NCBI GenBank assembly: GCA_020249775.1
Contig: JADCFA010000018.1
Span: 124,001-188,000, forward strand
DNA: 64,000 nt
Direction: 5' to 3'
DNA from: Roseomonas sp.
GTDB lineage: Bacteria > Pseudomonadota > Alphaproteobacteria > Acetobacterales > Acetobacteraceae
Part shown: piece by piece, positions 32,507-55,523 of the stretch
Numbering within the stretch: position 1 is the stretch's first letter
How the letters are laid out: every line of letters starts with the position of its first letter
Position numbers and translations under genes: made by a program
Notes under the pieces: model-generated
Databases searched by the model: none
Told to the model about the DNA's origin: nothing
The model's input: only the letters and a program-made list of their open reading frames with translations

Positions 32507-34210
32507 GTGGTATTCGATACAATTATTGTTGGTGGTGGTTCTGCCGGTTCTGTTTTGGCGAATCGACTATCCGCGCGCAGCGGTCATAAGGTGCTGCTGT
32601 GCGAAGCGGGCCCCGATACGCCACCCGGCGAAGAGCCCAAGGAAATACGCGATAGTTATTCCGGCACGGCGTATTTCGATCCACGTTTTCACTGGACTGA
32701 TCTGCGGGTGCACACGCAGATTGTTTCGCATAACAACCCACAGGATCGCCCACCCTTGCGCAAATACGAACAGGCGCGGGTCTTGGGCGGCGGTTCATCC
32801 ATCAACGGGCAAATGGCCAATCGTGGCGCGCCGACGGATTACAATGAATGGGAAGCCCGCGGGGCGGCCGGATGGAATTGGGACTCGGTGCTGCCCTACT
32901 TCAAGAAGGTTGAAAATGATCTTGACTTCGGAGGCCCTTATCACGGCAAGGAAGGCCCCATAAAAGTCCGCCGCGTCATGCCCGCCCAGTGGAATAATCA
33001 CGCCAAGGCGGCCGCAAAGACCTTCGCGGAGGCGGGCTTCAAGCCACTTGAGGATCAAAATGGCGTTTTTGAGGATGGCTTCTTCCCGATTACCATTTCA
33101 AATGCGGATGAACAGCGTGTTTCAGCTGCCATGGGGTACCTGGATCGTACCACCCGCGCGCGGGAAAACCTGACCATTTCCTGTGATACACAAGTGAAAG
33201 CCCTGATGTTCGAAGGCCGCCGCTGTGTTGGCGTTATCGCACTCGTGCGGGGTCAGGATCAGATCTTTCTGGGCAAAGAGGTCATTCTTTCCTGCGGCGC
33301 CATTCACTCACCGGCACATTTGCTGCGCGCAGGCATCGGCCCTGTCGGGCATTTGCGCAACATGGGCATTCCTGTGCGCATGGCGCTGCCCGGGGTGGGG
33401 AATGGCCTGATGGACCACCCTTCTATTGCATTATCGTCTTATCTGAAAAAGGGAGCACGTGTCGATCAGCAGACACGCCGACATATCCTGCTTGGCCTGC
33501 GTTACTCATCAAGGTTTGAGGGGGTACCCGCAGGTGATATGTTTGCCGCGGTGGTCAGCAAATCTGCATGGCATGCGGTGGGGGAACAGATCGCCTCCAT
33601 GCTGCTATGGGTGAACAAGACCTATTCAGAAACCGGGCAGCTCAAACTCGCCTCCAGCGACTGGAAGGCTGAACCAATTGTTGAGTTCAACCTGCTTTCG
33701 GACCGCCGCGATCTTGAACGGCTGATGGGCGGTTTTCGCATGATGGCTGCGCTGCAAATGAGCAGCGAATTAGGGAAGATCACGGCCAATCATTTCCCGG
33801 CAAGCTATAGTGACCGGGTACGCAAGCTTGGGGTCGTGAGCACGAAGAACAAGCTGCTGACATCCTTGATCAGCATGATATTGGATGGCCCCGAATTCAT
33901 TCGAAGCTATTTCATCAACCGCTTTGTGGTGGAAGGTTTCCGCATCGATCAGGTGCTGATGGATGATTCCGCCTTGGAAGCCTTTATCCGTAAGGCTACC
34001 ATTGGTGTTTGGCATGCTTCCTGTTCATGTCGCATGGGCCGCCCGGAAGATTCGATGTCGGTGGTGGATACTGTTGGCCGCGTAAAGGGGTTTGAGGGGC
34101 TGCGCGTGGTGGACGCTTCGATCTTTCCAGTCGTGCCCTGCGCAAATACCAATTTCCCGACCTTGATGACAGCGGAGAAAATTGCGGATGCGATTATTGC
34201 GGGGCATTGA
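32507..34210 (+). CDS. GMC-family FAD-dependent oxidoreductase
   Basis: A 567-residue glucose-methanol-choline oxidoreductase: dinucleotide-binding GGGSAGSVLANRL at about 9-21, the family signature RVLGGGSSINGQ at about 88-99, and active-site His in GVWHASCSCRMG near the C terminus. It oxidises an alcohol using FAD. GTG start with GAGGAGG upstream. Base composition is slightly lower in GC than the neighbouring core genes, a possible sign of separate history. It ends 7 bases from the convergent racemase gene. Substrate unknown. Confidence 0.9.
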   Translation: MVFDTIIVGGGSAGSVLANRLSARSGHKVLLCEAGPDTPPGEEPKEIRDSYSGTAYFDPRFHWTDLRVHTQIVSHNNPQDRPPLRKYEQARVLGGGSSINGQMANRGAPTDYNEWEARGAAGWNWDSVLPYFKKVENDLDFGGPYHGKEGPIKVRRVMPAQWNNHAKAAAKTFAEAGFKPLEDQNGVFEDGFFPITISNADEQRVSAAMGYLDRTTRARENLTISCDTQVKALMFEGRRCVGVIALVRGQDQIFLGKEVILSCGAIHSPAHLLRAGIGPVGHLRNMGIPVRMALPGVGNGLMDHPSIALSSYLKKGARVDQQTRRHILLGLRYSSRFEGVPAGDMFAAVVSKSAWHAVGEQIASMLLWVNKTYSETGQLKLASSDWKAEPIVEFNLLSDRRDLERLMGGFRMMAALQMSSELGKITANHFPASYSDRVRKLGVVSTKNKLLTSLISMILDGPEFIRSYFINRFVVEGFRIDQVLMDDSALEAFIRKATIGVWHASCSCRMGRPEDSMSVVDTVGRVKGFEGLRVVDASIFPVVPCANTNFPTLMTAEKIADAIIAGH

Positions 34211-34217
34211 GGCGCCG

Positions 34218-35024
34218 CTATTCCTGCACCCCCGGATAAATCGCCCCGTAATAGCGGCGCAGCTCCGCAATCTGCGCTGGCGGGGGCTGGCCATAGGCGC
34301 CGCGCCGGCTGGTGAAGCGCCCACCCATGGCGCGCCTGAGCTTCACCGCCGCCTGGCCCTGCTGCACCAGCGCCAAAGGCCCGCATAGCACCGGCGCACC
34401 ACGCGCGGTTTCATGCACGCCGGCTTCGAATAGCAGCACCATCGCCACACCAACTGCCGGGATCACCACCTCAGCCCCGCGTGCCACGCAATCCTCTGCC
34501 GCTTTGTGGAATTGTGCGAGTACGGAATCGCGCACAGGGCCCGGCGTGAAGGCGGCTTCAAGATCGGTCAGCTTCGCCACATCCATCCGTGCCGTGGCCG
34601 CCACCCGCCCGGCCAGGCCATAGCCGCGGATATTCTCAGCCACGCGCGCTTCGTGCTTGTCGTTGGAAAACACAATGCCGATGGATGCACCCATCTGGCA
34701 GGCGGTCAGCAGCGCGGCTTCGCAAAGCCCCAGCACGGGTATGCCCGCGATTTCGCGCGCGATGCGCAGCCCCGGGTCTACGATGTTGCCAAGCAATACG
34801 GCATCGAAGCCCTCGGCCTCGGCGCGGGCGACGTTTTCCAGGACCTCAGCGGTTTCGATGAATTCCAGGTAGCGATATTGGTCGCCAATACCGCCGCGCT
34901 TTTCAATGCCATGGATGGCGATTTCCGTGCCCGGATCGGCCGCGGCATCCAGGGTGCGGCGCAACGCCTTGGCATAGGTCGGCCAGGCATCCGGCCGGGT
35001 CAGGGATTGATACCAAAGCTTCAT
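34218..35024 (-). CDS. Asp/Glu racemase-superfamily protein lacking the catalytic cysteines
   Basis: A 268-residue protein of the hydantoin/Asp-Glu racemase superfamily (DAVLLGN, DPGLRIAREIAGIPVLGL, GADVV-like GAEVVIPAVG). In hydantoin racemases the first catalytic Cys lies in a GCFGDPGL-like loop, here GNIVDPGL, and the second in VLGCxGM, here IPAVGVAM. Both catalytic cysteines are therefore replaced. The remaining Cys in LGLCEAA is not at an active-site position by this alignment. It may be an isomerase or lyase with other chemistry. Single gene, upstream of the split cupin gene. Confidence 0.82.
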   Translation of the reverse strand: MKLWYQSLTRPDAWPTYAKALRRTLDAAADPGTEIAIHGIEKRGGIGDQYRYLEFIETAEVLENVARAEAEGFDAVLLGNIVDPGLRIAREIAGIPVLGLCEAALLTACQMGASIGIVFSNDKHEARVAENIRGYGLAGRVAATARMDVAKLTDLEAAFTPGPVRDSVLAQFHKAAEDCVARGAEVVIPAVGVAMVLLFEAGVHETARGAPVLCGPLALVQQGQAAVKLRRAMGGRFTSRRGAYGQPPPAQIAELRRYYGAIYPGVQE

Positions 35025-35126
35025 CGCAGCACCCCATGATTTCCTGGCTGATAGCGCCCGATTCCCCGTGCGGCGTCCACCCCCGGCCCCTCGCGCCCGC
35101 TAGCCTTTCTCTGGTATAAGGACGCC

Positions 35127-35283
35127 ATGAGCATGACCCTGGCCGATATCCTGGCGCCAATGCCGCCAGAACGCTTCTTCGCCGAATATTATGATCAGCA
35201 GCCGCTGCACCTGCCGGGCGCTGCCGAGAAATTTGCCGATGTCCTGGACTGGGCTGGCATTAATCGCCTGCTCGGCATGACGC
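35127..35283 (+). repeat. Left copy of 157-bp direct repeat flanking the glycan cassette
   Basis: Aligned by eye with 41611-41767: 146 of 157 positions are identical and no gaps are needed. Of the 11 differences, ten are synonymous third-position changes and one is a replacement. Weaker similarity continues about 35 bases upstream (TTTCTCTGGTATAAG versus TTTCCTCTGATATAAG). Confidence 0.92.
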
Positions 35284-35375
35284 TTAAAGAATCACTCGGT
35301 TTTCATCATCTATTAGGGTTGGTGCTGTTGCAGCTGATCGCTTTCACGAATGAGAAAGCCGACGTAGGTTTTTGA
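35127..35375 (+). pseudogene. Truncated 5' fragment of the JmjC/cupin gene
   Basis: The first 52 codons match the intact gene at 41611 at all but one residue (Pro13 for Ser13). After GGCATGACGC at 35283 the sequence becomes unrelated and the frame runs about 30 residues to a stop at 35375. The JmjC core is missing, so this fragment cannot be an active oxygenase. The P-for-S change and ten synonymous differences show that it is a diverged allele, not a fresh duplication. Confidence 0.9.
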
Positions 35376-35461
35376 TTGACAGAAATGCGTGGCCCGGAGT
35401 GAAATAACTCATGGAAGCCGACCCCAAAAATCGTCGCGGCGGCGCAGGGCTTGGTAAGCGG

Positions 35462-36505
35462 ATGAGGGTTCTTCTTTCTGGACCTGGGCTCATCGGGAAG
35501 AAGCACGCGCAGCTTCTTGCCCAATCCGACCGTAGCCTGCTGGTAGGGATCGTGGCCCCCCCCCACCCAGAAAACATCACCTTCGCGGCGGAGCGGGACT
35601 TGCCTCTCTATTCTTCCCTGGGAGACGCCTTGGCCGAAATTTCCTTCGACGCCGCAATTATCGCATCGCCGAATGAATTCCATATGCCGCAGGCTTTGGC
35701 TTGCTTGAGGCGTGGAATACCCGTTTTGGTAGAGAAACCTCTTGCTTCAGATCTGGGGAGCGCCGCGCTTATCTGCTCGGAGGCAAGAAGGCTGAATGTG
35801 CCAGTTCTTGTTGGGCACCATCGAACCTATAGTGCCATGTTGAGCAGCGCCCGGAGTTTCATGCGGTCAAGGGAATTTGGTGACCTCACGGCCGTTCAGG
35901 GCGCTGCGGCCTTCCGCAAGCCCGAGCATTACTTCGAAGAAGGTCCTTGGCGGTCCAGGGCGGGTGGCGGACCGATTCTGATTAATCTTATCCATGAAAT
36001 CGGAATTCTGCGGTTTCTTTGCGGACCCATCTCCGCTGTTTCGGCCATGGCGAGCCATGCACGCCGACGTTTCGAGGTTGAGGATACCGCTGCCATTAAT
36101 CTCAGATTTCAAAACGGCGCCCTTGGCACTTTTCTCCTTTCAGACATGGCCGCCAGTGACAGAAGTTGGGAGCTGACAACTGGGGAAAATCCAGCCTACC
36201 CAAGATCATCCGATACTGCCTGCTATCATTTCGCTGGGACCAATGGCTCCCTTGACTTTCCAACCATGCGGGCGCGCTTTTACGCCCAAGGCCAGGCACC
36301 ATCATGGTGGTCCCCCTTTGAAGCGCGCAGCCTAATGACCGAAACGGCCGATAATCTTGCGCGGCAACTCGCGCATTTCGAGGCTATTGTGCTAGACCGA
36401 GTCGAGCCTCTGGTTCCGGCTGAAGAGGGTTTTGAGAATATGCGTGTTATTGACGCAATAAAACGGGCGATCGAAACGCGTAGTGAGGTTGAGGTGTCGC
36501 ATTGA
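35462..36505 (+). CDS. Gfo/Idh/MocA-family oxidoreductase
   Basis: A 347-residue NAD(P)-dependent sugar dehydrogenase. The Rossmann motif is GPGLIGKKHA at the N terminus, followed by VEKPLA (catalytic Lys) and GGGPILINLIHEIGI (active-site His). Pairing with the adjacent DegT aminotransferase recalls WbpB/WbpE-type steps, in which a nucleotide sugar is oxidised and then aminated. An in-frame ATG at 35411 would add 17 residues but leads with a non-conserved tail. Its stop overlaps the TTG start of the next gene. Confidence 0.88.
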   Translation: MRVLLSGPGLIGKKHAQLLAQSDRSLLVGIVAPPHPENITFAAERDLPLYSSLGDALAEISFDAAIIASPNEFHMPQALACLRRGIPVLVEKPLASDLGSAALICSEARRLNVPVLVGHHRTYSAMLSSARSFMRSREFGDLTAVQGAAAFRKPEHYFEEGPWRSRAGGGPILINLIHEIGILRFLCGPISAVSAMASHARRRFEVEDTAAINLRFQNGALGTFLLSDMAASDRSWELTTGENPAYPRSSDTACYHFAGTNGSLDFPTMRARFYAQGQAPSWWSPFEARSLMTETADNLARQLAHFEAIVLDRVEPLVPAEEGFENMRVIDAIKRAIETRSEVEVSH

Positions 36506-37680
36506 CCGCGCAGGGATTGATATCGGCTTCAGGAGCCGATTTAGACATCCACAGTGGTCCTGCGGCCGTTGCGCCGCTTTATGTGAGCCAGCCGTTGCTG
36601 CCGGATCAAACTGCCCTGAATTCATATATCGAGAAAATCTGGGCGTCCAAATATGTGACCAATCACGGGCCGTTCAGTCTGGAACTCGAAGATAGACTAG
36701 CTGCGTTACTGCATGTCCCCACTGCCAAATTATTTAACAATGCGACGATTGGCCTTCTGGTAGCGCTAAAACTTTTCGAACTTCCACCAGGAAGCGAAGT
36801 AATCACCACCCCAATGACTTTTGCGGCAACTGCCCATTCGATCGCGTGGAATAATCTGCGTCCTGTCTTTGTGGATATCAAGGAAGATGATCTGACGATT
36901 GATCCAGAAGCAGTGGAAATGGCAATATCGCCACGAACTTCCGCCATTTTGGCTGTTCATGTTTATGGTTGCATTTGTGATCATGGCGCTTTGCAGCGCC
37001 TAGCCCACCTGCATGGCTTGAAGCTGATCTATGATGCAGCGCATGCTTTTGGCGCCTATTGGAATGGTTGTCCCGTCGCGTCACTTGGGCACGCTTCGGT
37101 GTTTTCTTTCCACGCGACCAAGCTTTTCAATACGCTAGAGGGCGGGCTTGTTACCACCAACAGGCCTGAAGATCGGGAACGCATTTATCTTCTCCGAAAC
37201 TTTGGCATCAAGAATGAGGAGGAGGTTGTCTCTGTCGGCATCAATGGCAAGATGAACGAGCTTCAGGCAGCTATTGGGCTGCTGAACCTGGATATTTTCG
37301 AGGGTGAGAGGGAAAAACGTAAAGGGCTTAGACAACGCTACCGGCAGGTCTTAGGTGGTTTGGACGGCGTCCTTTTGCAGGAGGTTGCGGAACATATAAC
37401 CCAATCAGAACAATATTTGCTGGTGCGGATTGATCAGGAGAAGTCACGCCTGAATCGCGACGAGATCAAGAAAAAATTGGCAGAAAAGCAGATCTTTGCG
37501 CGCAAATACTTCTATCCGATCTGTACGGATTATGAACCTTTTAGAAACATGCCCATCATTTCAAAGCGAGCACGGCCTTATGCGCAAGTGGCAAAGCACC
37601 AGGTCCTTTGTTTGCCTTTTCATTCCGGCGTTACGGAAGCGCATCTTGACCTTATTGCGGCGGTGTTTCAGGCCTGCTGA
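36502..37680 (+). CDS. DegT/DnrJ/EryC1/StrS-family aminotransferase
   Basis: A 392-residue PLP-dependent sugar aminotransferase. Visible features are TKLFNNATIGLLVALKL, YDAAHAFGA (cofactor Asp) and the Schiff-base Lys in SFHATKLFNTLEGG (about residue 212). Family members transfer an amino group to keto-sugars on nucleotide carriers. It starts with TTG overlapping the dehydrogenase stop, so the two are probably translationally coupled and act in sequence. The amino-sugar product cannot be named. Confidence 0.9.
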   Translation: MTAQGLISASGADLDIHSGPAAVAPLYVSQPLLPDQTALNSYIEKIWASKYVTNHGPFSLELEDRLAALLHVPTAKLFNNATIGLLVALKLFELPPGSEVITTPMTFAATAHSIAWNNLRPVFVDIKEDDLTIDPEAVEMAISPRTSAILAVHVYGCICDHGALQRLAHLHGLKLIYDAAHAFGAYWNGCPVASLGHASVFSFHATKLFNTLEGGLVTTNRPEDRERIYLLRNFGIKNEEEVVSVGINGKMNELQAAIGLLNLDIFEGEREKRKGLRQRYRQVLGGLDGVLLQEVAEHITQSEQYLLVRIDQEKSRLNRDEIKKKLAEKQIFARKYFYPICTDYEPFRNMPIISKRARPYAQVAKHQVLCLPFHSGVTEAHLDLIAAVFQAC

Positions 37681-37771
37681 TGTTGTCGCGCTGCACTCCT
37701 CCCGCGAAATCCTCCGGGATGACTCTTTTCAGGCGAAGTTGTTTCTCGCCAGCCAGTGAGGGGCAAAGAGA

Positions 37772-38890
37772 TTGAAGGTCTTGCTGCTTGACGCGGCTTT
37801 CAGCGCTGTCCCCATTCACGAATACCTAACCGATATCGGCTGCGATGTCTGGACCATGGGAAATCGAGCTGAAGATCCCCTTGCTCTTGCTTACAGGGGG
37901 AATTGGATCTGCGCCAATTATGGGGATGCGGCTCTGGTTCAGTCATGCGTCAAGAAACATGAGTTTGAGGCCGTCATTCCCGGATGCACCGATGTGTCGA
38001 TGGCAAGTTTTGTTCAGCTCAAACAGCAGGGAAGCTATTGGCTTTCGCCTGAAACAAACGACATTCTCAATAATAAGCCGCTGTTTCGCCGCTTATGCCG
38101 AGATCTTGATGTTCCGGCTCCCCGTGCGGTGGATGTGAGAAGCTTGCCAAAATCTGGAAAATTCATTTGCAAACCGGCGGATAGCTTTAGTGGACGTGGC
38201 GTGACGATCTTTGACGCGGCGGATGCCAAGGCCGTGGATGTGGCTGTGGCATCGGCAATGACCCATAGTCCGCGCGGTGAGATAATATGCGAGAATTTCA
38301 TTGAAGGTGAGCTGTATAGCTATACAGCCTTCCTGAAGGCTGGTGCCGTTGAGCGCGCATTCATTGTTCGCGAAGGATCACGCTATAATCCCTTTGCCGT
38401 TGATACATCGCATCTATGTGATGATTATGACAGCCGAAAACTATTGGTTCTTCGTGCGGCAATTGAGGCGATATCAGCCCATCTAGATTTATGCGATGGA
38501 CTTTTGCACACGCAGTTTATCGACTCAGGTGAGGGTGTCGCGATCATTGAAATGACGCGGCGCTGTCCCGGCGATCTATACGCGAGGCTGATCGAATACA
38601 GTACCGGGCATCATTACGCGGGCGAGTTTGCTTCGTATTTTCTGGGGAGGCGAGTGGAGGTACCCCGGTTCCATCGGCGTTATGTCTTGCGGCATACGAT
38701 CAAGCAGATGGCGCAAAAGAGGTTCTTTGGCCTTGAAATAGACTTGCCCGGGGTATTCAAGATTGTGCCCGTGGTGCGCAATGGCGAAGCCTTGGACCCG
38801 AAAATCGCGACGCGTGTTGGTTTGGCTTTCGCTGAAGCGGTAGATTATGAAAATTTGCGACGGCTCTATGCTGCGACCATCAATCGATGA
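37772..38890 (+). CDS. ATP-grasp enzyme
   Basis: A 372-residue ATP-grasp-fold protein. An N-terminal pre-ATP-grasp domain (MKVLLLDAAFSAVP) leads to FICKPADSFSGRGV (ATP-binding Lys and glycine loop, about 127-140), IICENFIEGELYSY and the metal-binding IIEMTRRCPGD. It resembles carbamoyl-phosphate synthase-like and PylC-like ligases that join a carboxylate to an amine. In this cassette it could acylate the amino group made by the DegT enzyme. TTG start with GAGGGG upstream. Ligase partner inferred, not shown. Confidence 0.85.
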   Translation: MKVLLLDAAFSAVPIHEYLTDIGCDVWTMGNRAEDPLALAYRGNWICANYGDAALVQSCVKKHEFEAVIPGCTDVSMASFVQLKQQGSYWLSPETNDILNNKPLFRRLCRDLDVPAPRAVDVRSLPKSGKFICKPADSFSGRGVTIFDAADAKAVDVAVASAMTHSPRGEIICENFIEGELYSYTAFLKAGAVERAFIVREGSRYNPFAVDTSHLCDDYDSRKLLVLRAAIEAISAHLDLCDGLLHTQFIDSGEGVAIIEMTRRCPGDLYARLIEYSTGHHYAGEFASYFLGRRVEVPRFHRRYVLRHTIKQMAQKRFFGLEIDLPGVFKIVPVVRNGEALDPKIATRVGLAFAEAVDYENLRRLYAATINR

Positions 38891-38966
38891 TCATCGGCTC
38901 AACTGGAGTTACCTGCATATAGTTGGTGCAGACGCTCGATCGAAACCGAAATTTCAACTTATTACT

Positions 38967-40184
38967 TCAACGTCGAAAACTCCAAGAAGAGCTATTTCTT
39001 TCTAATTGGCACATCGCTGCCAATTCAAGAATTTCGCCAATAAGGCGATCAACGCTGAATTCATTCTCTGCCCGGAGCCGGCTTTGCCTGAGCATGGATT
39101 GCAATTCATTTTTATGGCCGGAGCCCAGTTTTCGAATCTCAGAGATATGGCGATCTAATTCATTGGCTAACGTTGGACTATCAATCGATACAGATTTGAA
39201 ATTTGGATAATTCCTTAAGGCCTTCGTCACAAAAGCAGTGCCATCAGAAATACTAAAGGCTTGCGACACTAGTGCCGCCAATATCCGTTCATGTACATAG
39301 TTCAAAGTGCAGGGCAAAACATTAATGAGAATGCGACTACGGCTGTAGAGTTGATCCAATTTCTCGGCGGGAATCTTGCCATGAAAACGTGCCTGCGTAT
39401 TAACTTTGTCGATATGTGGCCAGTCACCAAAAACATGTCCCCCGTGCCGCATGACTTCCCGTAACATGCGTTCGGCCCTGACAGCACGTACGTAAGAATC
39501 CACCGCTGCGCAGGCCCGGAGCAGTAATGTCCGATTTTGACCGAAATACATGGAGCAAGCCGCGAAGGAATCAATAACGATCTGGCCGATGGTTTTTTGC
39601 TGCCCAGCCAACGCAACGGCAGACGCATCTTCAATAACTCCACGTAATTTACTCGGAAATGCAGTCCACGCGGCGCGAAGCGCTTCAGAGTCCACACCGG
39701 ATTTGACGTAGACGATTTCAAGATCCCGATCGTGCCAGGGGGTTTCGTCTGCCAGCGGATTGGGGGGATAAAGGCCACCAAAGACAGAGGAAAAATTTTT
39801 ACCCCCCATGATGTCGCAATAAAATTGCCGAAAATCCTCAGACTTGTAGAGATGAAAGAGCGTAGGGCCCTCATTAGCATGTAAGTATGGCGCGTAAAAA
39901 GGAGCATCACCCATAAGGGAAATAAACGGGATATTCAGGCTGGTCCAGAGGTTGTCGGCTTCGGTGCGAAGCCCCATACCGAAACCTTGAAAGGAGAAAC
40001 AGAAACTAGGCCGACCCGACTCAAGATAGGTACTCAGCTTTGTGTGCCAGTCTTCCTTTGCCAAATCTATGAGGGTCATCGAGACGCCGTACAATTTGGC
40101 TCGATTAGCCACAACGCTCGTAGCCCAAGTAAGAATTTCGTTATCACTTTGACCTACTAGGGCAATTGCTGAGATATTTGCCAT
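38967..40184 (-). CDS. Glycosyltransferase-like protein (CgeB/GT group 1 type)
   Basis: A 405-residue protein and the most A/T-rich gene in the cassette. The C-terminal part (YSRSRILINVLPCTLNYVHERI, read from about 285) resembles the acceptor-side segment of CgeB-like glycosyltransferases (PF13524), where a pair of conserved residues follows the H-x-R/N-V-N pattern. The N-terminal half (FCFSFQGFGMGL, SLMGDAPFYAPYL) is not recognised. It is convergent with the ATP-grasp gene and divergent from FkbM. Donor and acceptor are unknown. Confidence 0.65.
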   Translation of the reverse strand: MANISAIALVGQSDNEILTWATSVVANRAKLYGVSMTLIDLAKEDWHTKLSTYLESGRPSFCFSFQGFGMGLRTEADNLWTSLNIPFISLMGDAPFYAPYLHANEGPTLFHLYKSEDFRQFYCDIMGGKNFSSVFGGLYPPNPLADETPWHDRDLEIVYVKSGVDSEALRAAWTAFPSKLRGVIEDASAVALAGQQKTIGQIVIDSFAACSMYFGQNRTLLLRACAAVDSYVRAVRAERMLREVMRHGGHVFGDWPHIDKVNTQARFHGKIPAEKLDQLYSRSRILINVLPCTLNYVHERILAALVSQAFSISDGTAFVTKALRNYPNFKSVSIDSPTLANELDRHISEIRKLGSGHKNELQSMLRQSRLRAENEFSVDRLIGEILELAAMCQLERNSSSWSFRR

Positions 40185-40688
40185 GTCTCACCATCAAGAT
40201 GTTCGACCACTCTGATCATAACGAATTAGACGGAGATGGCCAAGCCAGATGTTGTAGGGAGTATTTAAAACGTATAATGCGACCCACATCCCCGACTCTC
40301 AACAGAGTTGGCTCGGCCACACTTCTCAGTTCCAAGCAACGAAATTTCTGGGCCCGGATGGTGCTCCGCAACCTGGGTTCAGTGTAATGTGTTGGGGAAG
40401 GCCGACCAGGCAAACGGACTTGGTTAGGAAATAGTCGCCAAAGCTCCATATCCGGTGATTTCCTATAGGATGACGTCTGCTTTTCTGAGCCCAGTACCAC
40501 CGCCCCTCGTTGAGGGCGCAGCTTTTCTGGTATAAGCATTTGTCTTTCCATCTCGCCCGTTACTGGTACCATCGTCTTCGGTTCATTCTTTGTCGCAAAT
40601 GAGGTCGATTATGGTCTGCGCCATACAACTGCGGCCGGAAAAAAGCAGCTTGAGGCGGCGTTCCGTTTCAGCGAAAGGTGTTGAGTGC
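40185..40688. other. Divergent promoter region inside the cassette
   Basis: About 500 bases between the glycosyltransferase (minus) and FkbM (plus) start codons, with no convincing gene. Bases 40501-40537 resemble the promoter stretch upstream of both cupin copies: CGCCCCTCG-like start, then CTTTTCTGGTATAAG, with the same 37-base spacing, about 23 of 37 matches to the left copy. It could be a promoter or a third, decayed copy of the cupin 5' region. Confidence 0.4.
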
Positions 40689-41522
40689 ATGAGCGATGTT
40701 TCGAAACTTATCGAGAGTGAGCTTCAATACTTCAAGCCCATGCTTGAAAGAAGCATCAGATCTTCAACGGCAGAGCAGCAGGCTTGGCGTAACGAAACAA
40801 TTCGTCAGCGTCAAGAAAGAATTTCGCTTGAGGTTTTCGACATGCTCCATGGGACAGTGCGCTATGGTCCTTTTACAGGACTGAAGCTTGATAGAGAGGC
40901 TTGGTGGGGATGCTTGGACCTAGGCAGCCAATGCCTTGGACTGTATGAGTTGGAGATCCTCAGTTTTTTGGCGCAAGTCAAACTTGGTCAGTTTTCGACT
41001 TTTATAGACATTGGCGCTGCGGATGGTTATTACGCAATCGGTATGCTCAAGTCGCAGAAGATCCGCAAAGCGATCTGCTTCGAACAATCCGAATTGGGAC
41101 GCGAGACTATCGCGAAGAATTGGCAACGTAATGATTCGGAAGGCGTTCTCGAAATCTTCGCGGAGGCGAATCCGGAAACGATCTGCGCCTTACCTCGGGC
41201 TGACCTTTCCGGCGCCCTTGTAATGGTTGACATCGAAGGTGCGGAGTTCGATGTTTTGGTTGAGAAGACCCTCAGCGTACTTAAGTCCTGCACCATTGTG
41301 ATAGAAATCCATAATTGGATTGATGACTTCTCCACGCGTTACGCGGTATTTCTTCAAGAGGCGTCGAAATATTTTGAGATAGAGATTTTTAAACCTATCG
41401 AGCGCCCCACGAGCAGCATCAAAGAGCTGGCAGACTTCACCGATGATAATCGTTTGTTACTGGTCTCTGAACGCCGGCCGTGCTTGATGCGATTCATAAG
41501 ACTTGTGCCCAGGCCGCCCTAG
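40689..41522 (+). CDS. FkbM-family methyltransferase
   Basis: A 277-residue SAM-dependent methyltransferase. Motif I is FIDIGAADGYYAIG (about 102-115) and a later acidic motif is MVDIEGAEFDVL, the FkbM-type pair. FkbM enzymes O-methylate sugars or polyketide-type hydroxyls. The ATG at 40689 was chosen because the upstream in-frame extension (to 40590) is basic and not conserved. It is the last gene of the cassette, 88 bases from the intact cupin start. Confidence 0.85.
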   Translation: MSDVSKLIESELQYFKPMLERSIRSSTAEQQAWRNETIRQRQERISLEVFDMLHGTVRYGPFTGLKLDREAWWGCLDLGSQCLGLYELEILSFLAQVKLGQFSTFIDIGAADGYYAIGMLKSQKIRKAICFEQSELGRETIAKNWQRNDSEGVLEIFAEANPETICALPRADLSGALVMVDIEGAEFDVLVEKTLSVLKSCTIVIEIHNWIDDFSTRYAVFLQEASKYFEIEIFKPIERPTSSIKELADFTDDNRLLLVSERRPCLMRFIRLVPRPP

Positions 41523-41610
41523 CCAGCCCTTTGGTCGCAAGGCGGCCGGTAAAGAGAATAAGGCTCCCCGGCCCCTCTCCCATGCCCCGTTTCCTCTGAT
41601 ATAAGAACCC

Positions 41611-41767
41611 ATGAGCATGACCCTGGCCGATATCCTGGCGCCAATGTCGCCGGAGCGCTTCTTCGCGGAATATTATGATCAGCAGCCGCTGCATCTGCCG
41701 GGTGCCGCGGAGAAATTTGCCGATGTCCTGGATTGGGCCGGCATCAATCGCCTGCTCGGCATGACGC
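41611..41767 (+). repeat. Right copy of 157-bp direct repeat flanking the glycan cassette
   Basis: The first 157 bases of the intact cupin gene, 93 percent identical to 35127-35283. The homology stops exactly after GGCATGACGC, where the intact gene continues with ATATCTGG. It marks the right boundary of the inserted cassette. Confidence 0.92.
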
Positions 41768-42819
41768 ATATCTGGTCCGAACGCAGCCTGAAGGTGGTGC
41801 TGGACAGCACCACAATCCCTGCGGCGCAATATAGCCAAAGCGCCATGTCGCGCGATGGCGCCAATTCGCTGCAACCCATCCCCGCCAAGGTGCAGGAATG
41901 GGTGGCGCGCGGCGCTTCCGTGGTCATGAATGATGTGGATAGCCTGACGCCGGGGCTCGCTGGCGTTTCCAATGCGCTGGAAGGCGCTGGCCTCGGCAAG
42001 GCGCAGGCAAATGTCTATATCTCCTGGCAGAGCCATAAGGCCTTCCACGCGCATTATGACACGCATGATGTCTGGGCCGTGCAGGTGGAAGGGGAGAAGA
42101 TCTGGAACATCTGGGAAGGCCGTGCCGAATGGCCGGTGCCGCATGCGATTTTTCGCGGCCAGCCGCAGGAATTTCACGAAAAGGCCAAGGGTGCGCTGCG
42201 CTTCAAGGCGCATTTGAAAAAGGGCGATCTGCTCTATCTGCCGCGCGGCTGGTATCATGATGCCCTGGCCGAAGCGCCTAATTCCGTTCATATCGCCTAT
42301 GGCGTGCATGCCGCGTTGGGCGTGGATTTCATGGGCCTACTGACGGAGCGCGCCTTCCATGACGCTGAATTCCGCAAGCCCTTGCCGCGGCAGGATGGCT
42401 CAGCGACGGCGAAATATGCGCTGACGCAACGCGCGGCCTTGCTTGGCCAACGCATCAGTGAATGGTCGCGCGATCCAAAGTTTCTGCAAGCGGTGGAAAA
42501 TTTTCTGGCGCATTACCGTTATGAACGCGGCGGCTATGATTTGCTGGCGGCGCGCGGCGCCGCGCCCGCGGCGGAAGCCGGCGGCGCGCCAGTCTTTCGC
42601 GTGCGGCCCAATGTGAAAACCGTCCGCCGTGGCGCGGAGTATGGGCTGCGCACGGAAATGGGCATCCTGGCCATCAACGCGCATGAGGTTGAACCCGCCG
42701 CCTGGATCATCACACAGCCGAGTATTACGGAAACCTCTCTGGCCCTTGCCTGCCCCGGCGCCAATACGGCGGCGCTGATTGAAAAGCTGCGCGCGGCGGA
42801 GATTCTGCTGCCCGCATGA
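41611..42819 (+). CDS. JmjC/cupin-4 family 2-oxoglutarate-dependent oxygenase-like protein
   Basis: A 402-residue cupin_4 (JmjC) protein. The Fe(II) ligands appear as HAHYDTHDVW (HxD at about 147-149) and the later His in RGWYHDAL. Related proteins include ribosomal oxygenases such as YcfD/RoxA, which hydroxylate ribosomal protein residues. Its N-terminal 52 codons occur again at 35127-35283, so the cassette insertion left this copy whole. It overlaps the following OmpA-like gene by 4 bases (ATGA). Confidence 0.85.
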   Translation: MSMTLADILAPMSPERFFAEYYDQQPLHLPGAAEKFADVLDWAGINRLLGMTHIWSERSLKVVLDSTTIPAAQYSQSAMSRDGANSLQPIPAKVQEWVARGASVVMNDVDSLTPGLAGVSNALEGAGLGKAQANVYISWQSHKAFHAHYDTHDVWAVQVEGEKIWNIWEGRAEWPVPHAIFRGQPQEFHEKAKGALRFKAHLKKGDLLYLPRGWYHDALAEAPNSVHIAYGVHAALGVDFMGLLTERAFHDAEFRKPLPRQDGSATAKYALTQRAALLGQRISEWSRDPKFLQAVENFLAHYRYERGGYDLLAARGAAPAAEAGGAPVFRVRPNVKTVRRGAEYGLRTEMGILAINAHEVEPAAWIITQPSITETSLALACPGANTAALIEKLRAAEILLPA

Positions 42820-52234: not shown

Positions 52235-52328
52235 CTTTTCTGGGTACCCTTCGAGGGTCCGCAAAAAGTGGTCAGTCGAAACTATGTGTTCCTTCCGGGG
52301 AATGCATATTGGGAATGGAAAAACTCCG

Positions 52329-53165
52329 ATGACGACGAATTCGATCAATACGAATACGCAGTCGCTGATCGCGCTGCAGTCCCTCAATCTCACAAACGGT
52401 CAGCTATCTGTCACTCAAAAGCGGGTCTCCACTGGCTTTCGTGTCGCAGATGCACGTGATGATGGCGGGGCCTTTGCTGTAGCCCAATCCGTGAAGTCTG
52501 ACATGGCGGGCGTCGTAGCTGTGAATGAGCAGTTGGGCGGGGTAAAAGGTATCCTGGAAACCACCTTTGCGGCGCTTTCGGTCGTTTCGGATACCATGAA
52601 GCAGATCCGCGCCACCCTGACGCGGTTAGCTGACGCGGGCATCAGTAGTGGCCAGCGCTCTACCTATGAAGATCAGTACGAACTCTTGGCCAAACAGGTC
52701 GCAAATTTTGTGGATGATGCCTTCTATAATGGGCGCACATTGTTATCCACGGACACAGCTAATAATGGCGGTTCAATCTCCGCTATCCGGAATGAATCTG
52801 GCGGGCTCTTCACTATCCAAGCGGTGGATGGCACCCCTCTCAAGATTACTGCTGCTGCTCCAACAACCGCGGCTATTGCGCAAACCTGGATTGCAAGCGG
52901 CGGTACCTTTGACCTGGCTGACGCTCAGATCTCAAAGGCGCTCACTGAATTCGGGTCTGCCATGTCCTTTGTGGAAAACCAAATCGGTTACAATTCCAGA
53001 AAATCCGATGCCATGAGTAACGGCCTTGGCGCTCTTATAGATGCCGATTTGGCGCGGGAAAGCTCGTCGCTTGAGGGTTTGAGGGTGCGCCAGCAGCTTG
53101 GTGTTCAGACCCTCGGACTGGCCAATCAGGGTCCGCAGGTGCTGCTCGGACTGTTCCGGAACTAA
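52329..53165 (+). CDS. Flagellin (first copy)
   Basis: A 278-residue flagellin with conserved N- and C-terminal D0/D1 helices (SLIALQSLNLTNGQLSVTQKRV and ENQIGYNSRKSDAMSNGLGAL, closing ANQGPQVLLGLFR) and a short variable centre. The length is typical for alphaproteobacterial flagellins. The ATG at 52329 was preferred over 52284, which would prepend residues not found in flagellins. It ends before a hairpin terminator. The gene is paralogous to 53807-54643 with the same length. Confidence 0.93.
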   Translation: MTTNSINTNTQSLIALQSLNLTNGQLSVTQKRVSTGFRVADARDDGGAFAVAQSVKSDMAGVVAVNEQLGGVKGILETTFAALSVVSDTMKQIRATLTRLADAGISSGQRSTYEDQYELLAKQVANFVDDAFYNGRTLLSTDTANNGGSISAIRNESGGLFTIQAVDGTPLKITAAAPTTAAIAQTWIASGGTFDLADAQISKALTEFGSAMSFVENQIGYNSRKSDAMSNGLGALIDADLARESSSLEGLRVRQQLGVQTLGLANQGPQVLLGLFRN

Positions 53166-53207
53166 CCTGCCCTTGGCTTAATCTGATCGGTGAGTTTGCG
53201 TTAAGTG

Positions 53208-53237
53208 CGGCGTGATCCGTTTTGGCGGGTCACGCCG
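53208..53237 (+). terminator. Hairpin terminator after the first flagellin gene
   Basis: Arms CGGCGTGATCC (53208-53218) and GGGTCACGCCG (53227-53237) form an 11-bp stem with one wobble pair, followed by an A/T-rich stretch. There is no run of Ts, so efficiency is uncertain. Confidence 0.45.
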
Positions 53238-53691
53238 TAGGTATGTTCGAACGGTCGCATGGAAATTGCGGCTGTGATGAAGATACCAAGATGAATCAGG
53301 ACCAAAAGAAATTCAGGATAGTTTTACACTCACGCGTTTTTCTGTAATATCCAAAAAGTGCATAGCATGAAGCATTTTTTCAACTTCTGGTTAATTTTAG
53401 CTTGCAAGCCCTTAAGGCATTCATGAACAGCTGCTGCCGCAGAAAACCGGGACTTTTCCTCACTTGGCGTTGCAGCGACCGAATTCTGCGGTGCACATTA
53501 ATCATATGCTGGTTGCGGTCAGCCACCAATTTGCCTGTTATCCTGTTGTTTAAAGGGCCGAATTTGAAATTCACCCCTTTCCCCTCTCGCGCCGCGCCCA
53601 GGCCTAGACCCCGCCAAGGTCTTGCGACTTAAGGGCGGCGCTAAGCTTTGCTTAAAAAAAATTGATCGCGCTTTAGGTTTTCGGTTTCTTA
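53238..53691 (+). other. A/T-rich gap between flagellin genes
   Basis: About 450 bases with short frames but no recognisable gene. The right end carries the second flagellin promoter motif. Nothing else is seen in it. Confidence 0.5.
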
Positions 53692-53707
53692 TTTAGTTTT
53701 TATTAAC
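53692..53707 (+). promoter_or_regulatory. Flagellin upstream motif, copy 2
   Basis: TTTAGTTTTTATTAAC lies 100 bases before the second flagellin ATG and aligns with 52219-52234 at 13 of 16 positions. Downstream the two copies also share GGT followed by -10-like sequence at equal spacing. Confidence 0.5.
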
Positions 53708-53806
53708 TATCACCGGTCACTATACGTGGGCGCCGAAAAAATCGGAAGGCAATCTGGTAACCGCTACTCAGGGGAGAGCGGGCGCCAACAGAAAGGGGAA
53801 GACCCC

Positions 53807-54643
53807 ATGTCTTTCAACTCCGTAAACACCAACCGGCAGGCCGTTTTCGCCCTGCAATCCCTCAACCAAACCAATAGCGAGCTTGGCTTCACCCAGAAGC
53901 GGGTTTCCACCGGCTACCGCGTGGCCGACGCCCGTGATGACGGCGGCGCCTTCGCCGTTGCTCAGGCGGTGCGGTCTGACGTTGCGGGCATCACCGCGGT
54001 CGGTGAACAGCTTGGCGGTACGCGTGGTATTCTTTCCACCACCTTCGCCTCGCTTTCGGTGGTGTCTGACACCATGAAGCAAATTCGCGCCACACTGACC
54101 CGCTTGGCCGACGGCGCCGTTACGGGTGGGTCGCGCACATCCTACCAAGAACAGTATACGCTGCTTGTCGACCAAATGTCGAAATTCATTGACGACGCGC
54201 AATATAATGGTCGTACGCTCCTTAGCACGGATGCCGGTGTTGGTGGTGGCAACATCGTCAGTATCCGCAACGAAACGGGCGGATCCTTCACGATTGAAGC
54301 GGTGAATGGTGCAGATCTCAAGCTGACTTCTGTCGCGCCCGCTTCGGCTACCGCAGCCGCTGCATTCTTGCAGCCCTCGACCGGCCTTTTCGATATAGCT
54401 GATGCGGCCATCTCCTCTGCGCTGAACAAGTTCGGTGCGCAGATGCAATATGTGGAAAACCAGACCGTCTATAACTCCAAGAAGACTGACGCCATGAATG
54501 ATGGTCTTGGAGCGCTGGTGGATGCCGACCTTGCCAAGGAAAGCTCACTGCTGCAGGCCCTGCAGACAAGGCAGCAGCTTGGCGTTCAAACCCTGTCGCT
54601 CGCCAATCAGGGGCCGCAGGTTCTCCTTAGCCTCTTCCGCTAA
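53807..54643 (+). CDS. Flagellin (second copy)
   Basis: A 278-residue flagellin, equal in length to the first copy, with matching terminal helices (VFALQSLNQTNSELGFTQKR, ENQTVYNSKKTDAMNDGLGAL, ANQGPQVLLSLFR). The centre differs most, as expected for exposed filament regions. GAAAGGGGAAG precedes the ATG. It stands directly before flbT and flaF, which act on flagellin mRNA and export. Confidence 0.94.
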   Translation: MSFNSVNTNRQAVFALQSLNQTNSELGFTQKRVSTGYRVADARDDGGAFAVAQAVRSDVAGITAVGEQLGGTRGILSTTFASLSVVSDTMKQIRATLTRLADGAVTGGSRTSYQEQYTLLVDQMSKFIDDAQYNGRTLLSTDAGVGGGNIVSIRNETGGSFTIEAVNGADLKLTSVAPASATAAAAFLQPSTGLFDIADAAISSALNKFGAQMQYVENQTVYNSKKTDAMNDGLGALVDADLAKESSLLQALQTRQQLGVQTLSLANQGPQVLLSLFR

Positions 54644-54689
54644 GGCGAGTATTCTCGAGGAAGAGTTACCTCAGTAACAGGTTAAAACG

Positions 54690-54717
54690 GGTGACCCCGG
54701 CTCAGGCCGGGGCCACC
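54690..54717 (+). terminator. GC-rich hairpin between the second flagellin gene and flbT
   Basis: Arms GGTG and CACC enclose CCCCGGC and GCCGGGG with loop TCAG, a strong stem with one internal mismatch. No T-tract follows, so it could be a partial terminator that lets flbT/flaF be expressed at lower level, or an RNA-stability element. Confidence 0.5.
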
Positions 54718-54738
54718 GCCCCAAAACGGAGACAAAAA

Positions 54739-55164
54739 ATGTCAACGCTCGTTCTCGAACTTCGCCAAGGCGACATGATGATCGTCAATGGCGCCCCAAT
54801 CCGCTTTCGCAATCGCGCGCGGATCGAGCTTACCGCAAAGGCACGCTTCCTTTTTGGCAAGCAGCTGATGACACCCGATATGGCCAATACCCCGGCCCGG
54901 CGCATCTATTTCGCCTTGCAGACAGCCTATATCGGCGATCATGAGGAACGTAAGGCTGGCCTTGAACACGCCAAGCAACTGATCTCTGAATTCAGGGAAG
55001 CCACTACCTCGGGCCTCGCACGGGAATACCTGGATCGCGCCTTAGTGCTTGCCCAGGAAGATCAGTGCTATCAGGCTCTGAAATTTGCGCGCCGCGTCAT
55101 GCGGCATGAGGAAGTGGTGCTAGGCCTAAGTCCTATCGCCCAATTTGCAACCGCGACGGAATGA
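54739..55164 (+). CDS. flbT: Flagellar biosynthesis repressor FlbT
   Basis: A 141-residue FlbT. The family features are LELRQGDMMIVNGAPIRFR at the N terminus and NTPARRIYFALQTAYIG in the middle. FlbT binds the 5' leader of flagellin mRNA and controls its stability. The ATG at 54739 has GGAGACAA upstream. Its stop overlaps flaF (ATGA). Confidence 0.92.
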   Translation: MSTLVLELRQGDMMIVNGAPIRFRNRARIELTAKARFLFGKQLMTPDMANTPARRIYFALQTAYIGDHEERKAGLEHAKQLISEFREATTSGLAREYLDRALVLAQEDQCYQALKFARRVMRHEEVVLGLSPIAQFATATE

Positions 55165-55523
55165 TAGAAAAGCCCATGAACCAGATGCTCGGCGCGCTCC
55201 GCTACGGCGCCACACAACAAACCCGTAGCCTTCGTGAGCAGGAGGCGGATGTTTTCCGCCGCGTCAATTTTGCCCTGAAGGCGGCGTTGAACGGCGATCC
55301 GATAGAGCGCGCCCGCGCAGTCGCTGATAATCGTCGGCTGTGGCTGGCGATTGAATCGGCGATGTTGCATCCGGCCAATCAATTGCCCGAAGCCTTGCGC
55401 GCTTCAATAGTGAGCCTCGGTAGGACGGTCCAGCGGGAAATGGCCACCGGCGAGCCAGACTTGCCATTTCTGATCAATATGAATGATCAGATGATCCTCG
55501 GCCTGTCGGGCGATCCGGACTGA
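55161..55523 (+). CDS. flaF: Flagellar regulator FlaF
   Basis: A 120-residue FlaF. The conserved region runs SLREQEADVFRRVNFAL and NRRLWLAIESAMLHPANQLP. FlaF promotes flagellin production and opposes FlbT in other alphaproteobacteria. Translationally coupled to flbT. Confidence 0.91.
   Translation: MIEKPMNQMLGALRYGATQQTRSLREQEADVFRRVNFALKAALNGDPIERARAVADNRRLWLAIESAMLHPANQLPEALRASIVSLGRTVQREMATGEPDLPFLINMNDQMILGLSGDPD

Follow-up and report, generated by a model that had tools for sequence, protein, structure and literature searches.

Probable recombinational exchange of sugar gene cassettes at a GMC-RAC-cupin locus of a Roseomonas-like genus and the probable origin of a duplicated cupin 5′ end

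The interval formed by a GMC oxidoreductase gene, an Asp/Glu racemase-family gene (RAC) and a JmjC/cupin gene is a variable glycan locus in the Roseomonas-like genus studied here. In the window, by which we mean the whole 64,000-nucleotide stretch of DNA analysed, from the 4.07-Mb genome of a freshwater bacterium, this locus carries a five-gene cassette flanked by two diverged copies of the cupin 5′ end. Our preferred reading, to which we give a probability of about 0.8, is that alternative sugar gene sets are swapped at the GMC-RAC-cupin interval, and that the window holds a fusion of an empty-type allele with an allele of the type seen in one relative, G019, in which the resulting cupin stub was later overwritten. 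The layout looks like the outcome of an old event and not of a fresh insertion.

The cassette and the repeated cupin 5′ end

Read from the left, the conserved flank is a GMC oxidoreductase gene (32507..34210, plus strand; Pfam GMC_oxred_N/C), followed by RAC (34218..35024, minus strand; Pfam PF01177), which adjoins cupin in most relatives and forms part of the ancestral GMC-RAC-cupin order. The first copy of the cupin promoter/leader (35080..35126, plus strand) then leads into a cupin 5′ fragment of 52 codons and one base (35127..35283, plus strand), the stub, whose open frame extends through non-homologous sequence to 35375. The cassette consists of genes for a Gfo/Idh/MocA NAD-dependent oxidoreductase (GFO; 35411..36505, plus strand, probable start 35462; Pfam PF01408/PF02894/PF22725), a DegT/DnrJ/EryC1 sugar aminotransferase (36502..37680, plus strand; Pfam PF01041, E=2.5e-91; DesI-like, below the equivalog cutoff), an ATP-grasp ligase-like protein (37772..38890, plus strand; its ATP-grasp region matches PRK02186 weakly, with a 51% homologue beside GT and GFO in G270, a genome of another genus), a GT-B-like glycosyltransferase (GT; 38967..40184, minus strand; Glyco_trans_1_2 just under cutoff, with GT-B matches by fold) and an FkbM-family methyltransferase (40590..41522, plus strand; Pfam PF05050). 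The preliminary description had a JmjC gene split by this cassette. A 5′ fragment is indeed left at 35127-35283, but the cupin was not lost, since a complete gene of 402 aa that includes the second 5′-end copy lies at 41611..42819 (plus strand; Pfam JmjC_2 PF08007, E=4e-22; HxD motif at residue 148). The composition check proposed there sets the cassette apart, with a GC content of 50.9% against 61.9% in the remainder of the window and a GC3 of ~0.48-0.57, where most flanking genes have 0.63-0.78.

Consistent with the first account of the repeat, the segments 35127-35283 and 41611-41767 form a gapless alignment of 157 nt that contains 11 differences (93% identity), ten of them synonymous and the remaining one a change of Pro13 to Ser. 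The ungapped match reaches 162 nt (35125-35286 and 41609-41770, 93%), and the promoters upstream of both cupin copies are also homologous, over ~43-45 nt at 72% identity (the second copy at 41566-41608), so that the repeat is ~200 bp, longer than first noted. As had been claimed, the break is sharp and falls directly after GGCATGACGC, at the junction GGCATGACGC/TTAAAG (35283..35284). The blastn E-value of the second copy, 2.3e-62, excludes a chance origin, and a search of the whole genome gave no third copy of the cupin 5′ end besides these two. The same junction is present in the independently assembled genome G024, which rules out an assembly artefact and shows that the junction is not confined to this strain.

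A decayed third cupin 5′ end was considered at 40490-40650, between GT and FkbM, where a promoter-like GGTATAAG is accompanied by collinear matches to the cupin 5′ end. The match stood above shuffled sequence (none of 400 Markov resamples was as good) but came to just z = 2 when compared with actual windows of this genome; the orthologous G019 sequence gave z ~0 and a profile HMM scored 1.5 bits. We did not accept this candidate, which is weak against genome windows.

Alternative alleles in the genus and a mosaic cassette

The comparison covered 35 genomes of the genus, mostly draft MAGs and one genome per species. The closest are lake MAGs, several of them titled Roseomonas, and several of the relatives' MAGs, judging by their isolate names, probably come from a study of Microcystis colonies that covers 36 genomes of 13 Roseomonas species (PMC8477515). 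The empty GMC-RAC-cupin order is found in seven relatives with a complete locus (G007, G027, G008, G029, G025, G022 and G034). G019 has GMC, the same five genes and an intact cupin directly after them, with neither RAC nor a fragment; the preliminary description had called for relatives with an uninterrupted cupin, and these thus include a cassette-bearing one. G024 has RAC, the same cupin fragment, the same five genes and cupin, which is exactly the arrangement and junction of the window, and it is one relative, rather than every genome with the five genes, that shares the two-copy layout. Across the 35 genomes, the fragment-to-cassette junction occurs in none besides the window and G024, and G019 has no homologue of 35284-35358. 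The right boundary, from FkbM to the cupin promoter, is shared by the window and G019.

Different DegT/GT cassettes occupy the interval in G031, G033, G014 and G023, beside RAC, and in G012 and G026, where RAC is lost or replaced. The contents of the interval across the genus range from empty through GFO-DegT-ATPG-GT-FkbM, FdtA-DegT-hexapeptide-GT, DegT-PglD-GT and PhyH-FkbM-GT to GT alone, and the GT gene, present in 9 of the 35 genomes, is found solely at this locus. As separate observations, G024 carries a family-2 glycosyltransferase gene left of RAC, in the expected place of GMC (L062:250-1857), which suggests a second insertion at the same locus, and the variable interval of G014 holds an apparent IS3-type transposase fragment (L054:7095-7754; HHSDQGSQY motif, identified by eye).

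The cassette itself is a mosaic, G024-like up to ~40080 and G019-like onward to ~41600, and has at least two different donors. Left of 40074 the window agrees with G024 at 1057 of 1203 informative sites, but right of 40090 it does so at just 39 of 515, matching G019 instead (chi2 = 1003). The breakpoint (40074..40090) lies in the 5′ end of the GT gene, and FkbM, to the right of it, is 88.7% identical in nucleotides to G019 and 73.5% to G024. Synonymous divergence (dS) between window and G024 is 0.26 for GFO, 0.24 for DegT, 0.22 for ATP-grasp and 0.24 for GT, against 0.34-0.49 in the core genes (polA, LIP, RAC, cupin and lutA-like); between window and G019 it is 0.19 for FkbM, against 0.31-0.49 in the core. 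In core genes G024 is no nearer to the window than other relatives are. Cassette dS below core dS implies that parts of the cassette moved between species after these had split, although the low values of these low-GC genes could partly reflect another mutation or codon regime. Together with the mosaic breakpoint, these divergences bear out the earlier proposal that the segment recombined between relatives.

It had also been proposed that the cassette came with its own cupin allele, for which support is weak. The G019-like tract, at 96-98% identity, does run into shared cupin sequence, where it drops to background at ~41560-41700, but in the cupin body G019 is no nearer than other relatives. 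The tract thus stops near the cupin start, with little sign of a donor cupin allele beyond its first bases. At the left edge, the GMC gene of the window is an outlier, 79% identical to all relatives, which are themselves 90% alike, with a dS of 1.16 to G019, and is probably a separate import. The right flank showed no synonymous-divergence peak specific to the window.

Several observations underlie the history we propose: the layouts seen in relatives, the junction common to the window and G024, the breakpoint within the mosaic cassette, the uneven divergences and a G023-like overwrite of the G024 stub. Related species would exchange alternative sugar gene sets by recombination in shared flanks. 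In one such exchange, an empty-type allele (RAC-cupin) would have been joined to a G019-type allele, with the five-gene cassette directly before cupin, by a non-homologous left join, which links the inside of cupin codon 53 to a point shortly before the Gfo gene, and by a right join within shared cupin/cassette sequence. The outcome would be a dead 157-bp cupin stub, an intact cupin that was retained and a cassette between two diverged repeats. Later, the cassette would have undergone another recombination near 40080 and spread from species to species, and homologous recombination with ordinary RAC-cupin alleles would have overwritten the stub, which would explain why it still looks coding.

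For the left join we infer homology-facilitated illegitimate recombination or unequal exchange. Its direction may have been the cassette into an empty-type genome or RAC and the cupin 5′ end into a G019-type genome; the data fit both directions. A cassette-side parent of the left junction was not found in G019 or other relatives, so that neither microhomology nor direction is demonstrable. The sequence after the junction resembles the GMC-Gfo spacer of G019 weakly, with z = 5 for the window over the last ~80 bp and z = 0.3 for G024. The right crossover near the cupin start may stem from a later exchange with a G019-like donor rather than from the one that created the left junction.

Persistence of the stub and other possible origins

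Stubs of the window and G024 differ at 13 of 157 sites and the adjoining spacers at 40 of 176 (Fisher p = 3e-4), with the jump from 8% to 23% divergence falling right on the junction, and the stub has thus not been drifting freely since the junction formed. The preliminary description took the two copies to have evolved as separate functional genes. That part of it is not supported: the stub, at 52 codons, lacks the JmjC core and catalytic domain, the tail past the junction is 82 aa in the window and ~90 aa in a different frame in G024, and repeated overwriting explains the low non-synonymous divergence better. Over the stub, its promoter and the RAC start, G024 matches the native G023 allele at ~98% identity. 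The only two private non-synonymous changes of the G024 stub sit in the final two codons ahead of the junction, a pattern expected of recombination that renewed everything except the stub end. Judging from these sequence comparisons, the stub is most likely a dead remnant that has been refreshed by recombination from ordinary alleles. Overwriting is directly seen in G024 alone, and for the window stub none of the sampled genomes offers a close donor. In a tree of the 157-base copies the two from the window are not sisters, as the earlier account would have it, though these copies are too short to resolve the matter (AU p = 0.27).

Another way to view the stub is as a sequence kept by selection, either as a short leader ORF or as a promoter driving the cassette operon. 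Non-synonymous changes are far too few for neutrality, both between the window and G024 stubs (3 of 13, p = 7e-5) and between the two copies in the window (1 of 11, p = 4e-6), and the stub retains a cupin promoter facing the Gfo gene. However, the tail past the junction is not conserved between window and G024, the stub and promoter of G024 have recently been exchanged together in one piece, and the same operon exists in G019 without a stub. We therefore regard selection on the stub as unlikely, while allowing it some weight. A further reading, which we think improbable, is that the stub is a maintained landing pad for recombination, repeatedly refreshed by ordinary alleles, with the cassette lost or swapped. 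If this were true, a crossover between stub and intact cupin would restore RAC-cupin, and the locus would switch reversibly in the population between glycan-plus and glycan-minus forms.

Some integrative elements insert at the ends of conserved genes and restore them, and an element with its own cupin 5′ end might have entered the gene in this way, with a replaced 5′ end and promoter and an intact gene as the expected outcome. This is very unlikely here. Pfam searches of the segment gave no integrase, relaxase or IS element, in agreement with the earlier statement that no mobility gene is seen; the segment has no terminal inverted repeats and the window no tRNA. Moreover, the G019 cassette stands before a single cupin with no repeat or second attachment-like copy, the cassettes of other relatives sit at other points of the interval, and the whole genome holds only the two copies. 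Target-site duplication or transposon capture with later divergence of the copies, which a low-GC segment bounded by direct repeats might suggest and which had already been discounted, is less likely still, as the ~200 bp repeat (promoter included) begins exactly upstream of a gene and is no identical short target duplication, its copies are 7% different with unlike upstream junction types, the segment has no transposase by Pfam, and no IS or transposon with these terminal sequences was seen in relatives.

Candidate glycan target and relation to known islands

Going by their sequence families, the cassette genes would make and transfer an amino-sugar, with the ATP-grasp enzyme probably adding an acyl group and FkbM an O-methyl group, and we infer that these enzymes serve a surface or flagellar glycan. 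For GT, a structure model (pLDDT 67, enough for the fold and not for donor or acceptor) predicts, with modest confidence, a GT-B-like fold. In G270, from another Acetobacteraceae genus, homologues of DegT, GT, ATP-grasp and Gfo/Idh lie in one row away from cupin and flagellin (L236:7890-12455), a grouping that suggests a functional unit.

About 10 kb downstream, a low-GC stretch (52284-55523) carries a pair of flagellin genes (67% alike) and, after them, flbT-like and flaF-like genes, which were named from position and sequence start with no profile search; in some relatives the flagellin region has broken or rearranged copies. Flagellin glycosylation islands are known, for example in Alteromonas, Aeromonas and Geobacillus, and the present locus resembles them in its small sugar-nucleotide and glycosyltransferase cassettes that vary among relatives and in the flagellin genes nearby. 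Unlike those islands, the linkage of flagellin and cupin here is common to close relatives and is also present in genomes without the cassette, and other Acetobacteraceae genera show no linkage of the GT family to flagellin. For these reasons flagellin is a candidate target only.

The pattern at this locus fits a replacement flexible genomic island. Such islands occur in aquatic prokaryotes, which exchange them through homologous recombination (Lopez-Perez et al. 2014, PMC4033161). As in those, one locus holds alternative glycan-synthesis sets, different in genes and similar in function, with no mobility genes; and cassettes are closer than core genes between divergent lineages (PMC4033161). 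The mostly synonymous divergence of GMC on the left side may correspond to the peak that such islands show in a flanking gene (PMC4033161). It differs in that exchange here is between species of one genus (~90% nucleotide identity) and that part of a gene was left duplicated by a non-homologous join. The latter feature recalls homology-facilitated illegitimate recombination (PMC3240628), which has been proposed for orphan immunity-gene arrays at Vibrio cholerae T6SS loci (PMC5361080): one end is non-homologous, here where cupin codon 53 meets sequence that neither the native loci nor G019 possess; the other end, homologous in such products, may here be the crossover near the cupin start; and part of a resident gene is displaced or duplicated, leaving a fossil (PMC3240628, PMC5361080). 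In the Vibrio cholerae case, however, the fossil is a displaced 3′ end, whereas here it is a 5′ end with its promoter, lying upstream (PMC5361080).

Swapping of glycan islands by recombination is already known, but its steps are usually erased. Here an unusually complete set of intermediates survives in sibling species: the empty allele, the arrangement of the likely donor and a fused product with a shared junction. They make it possible to read where the breaks lie and how the scar was overwritten afterwards. The locus also carries a warning, in that a gene fragment with a low non-synonymous rate need not be functional where recombination is frequent.
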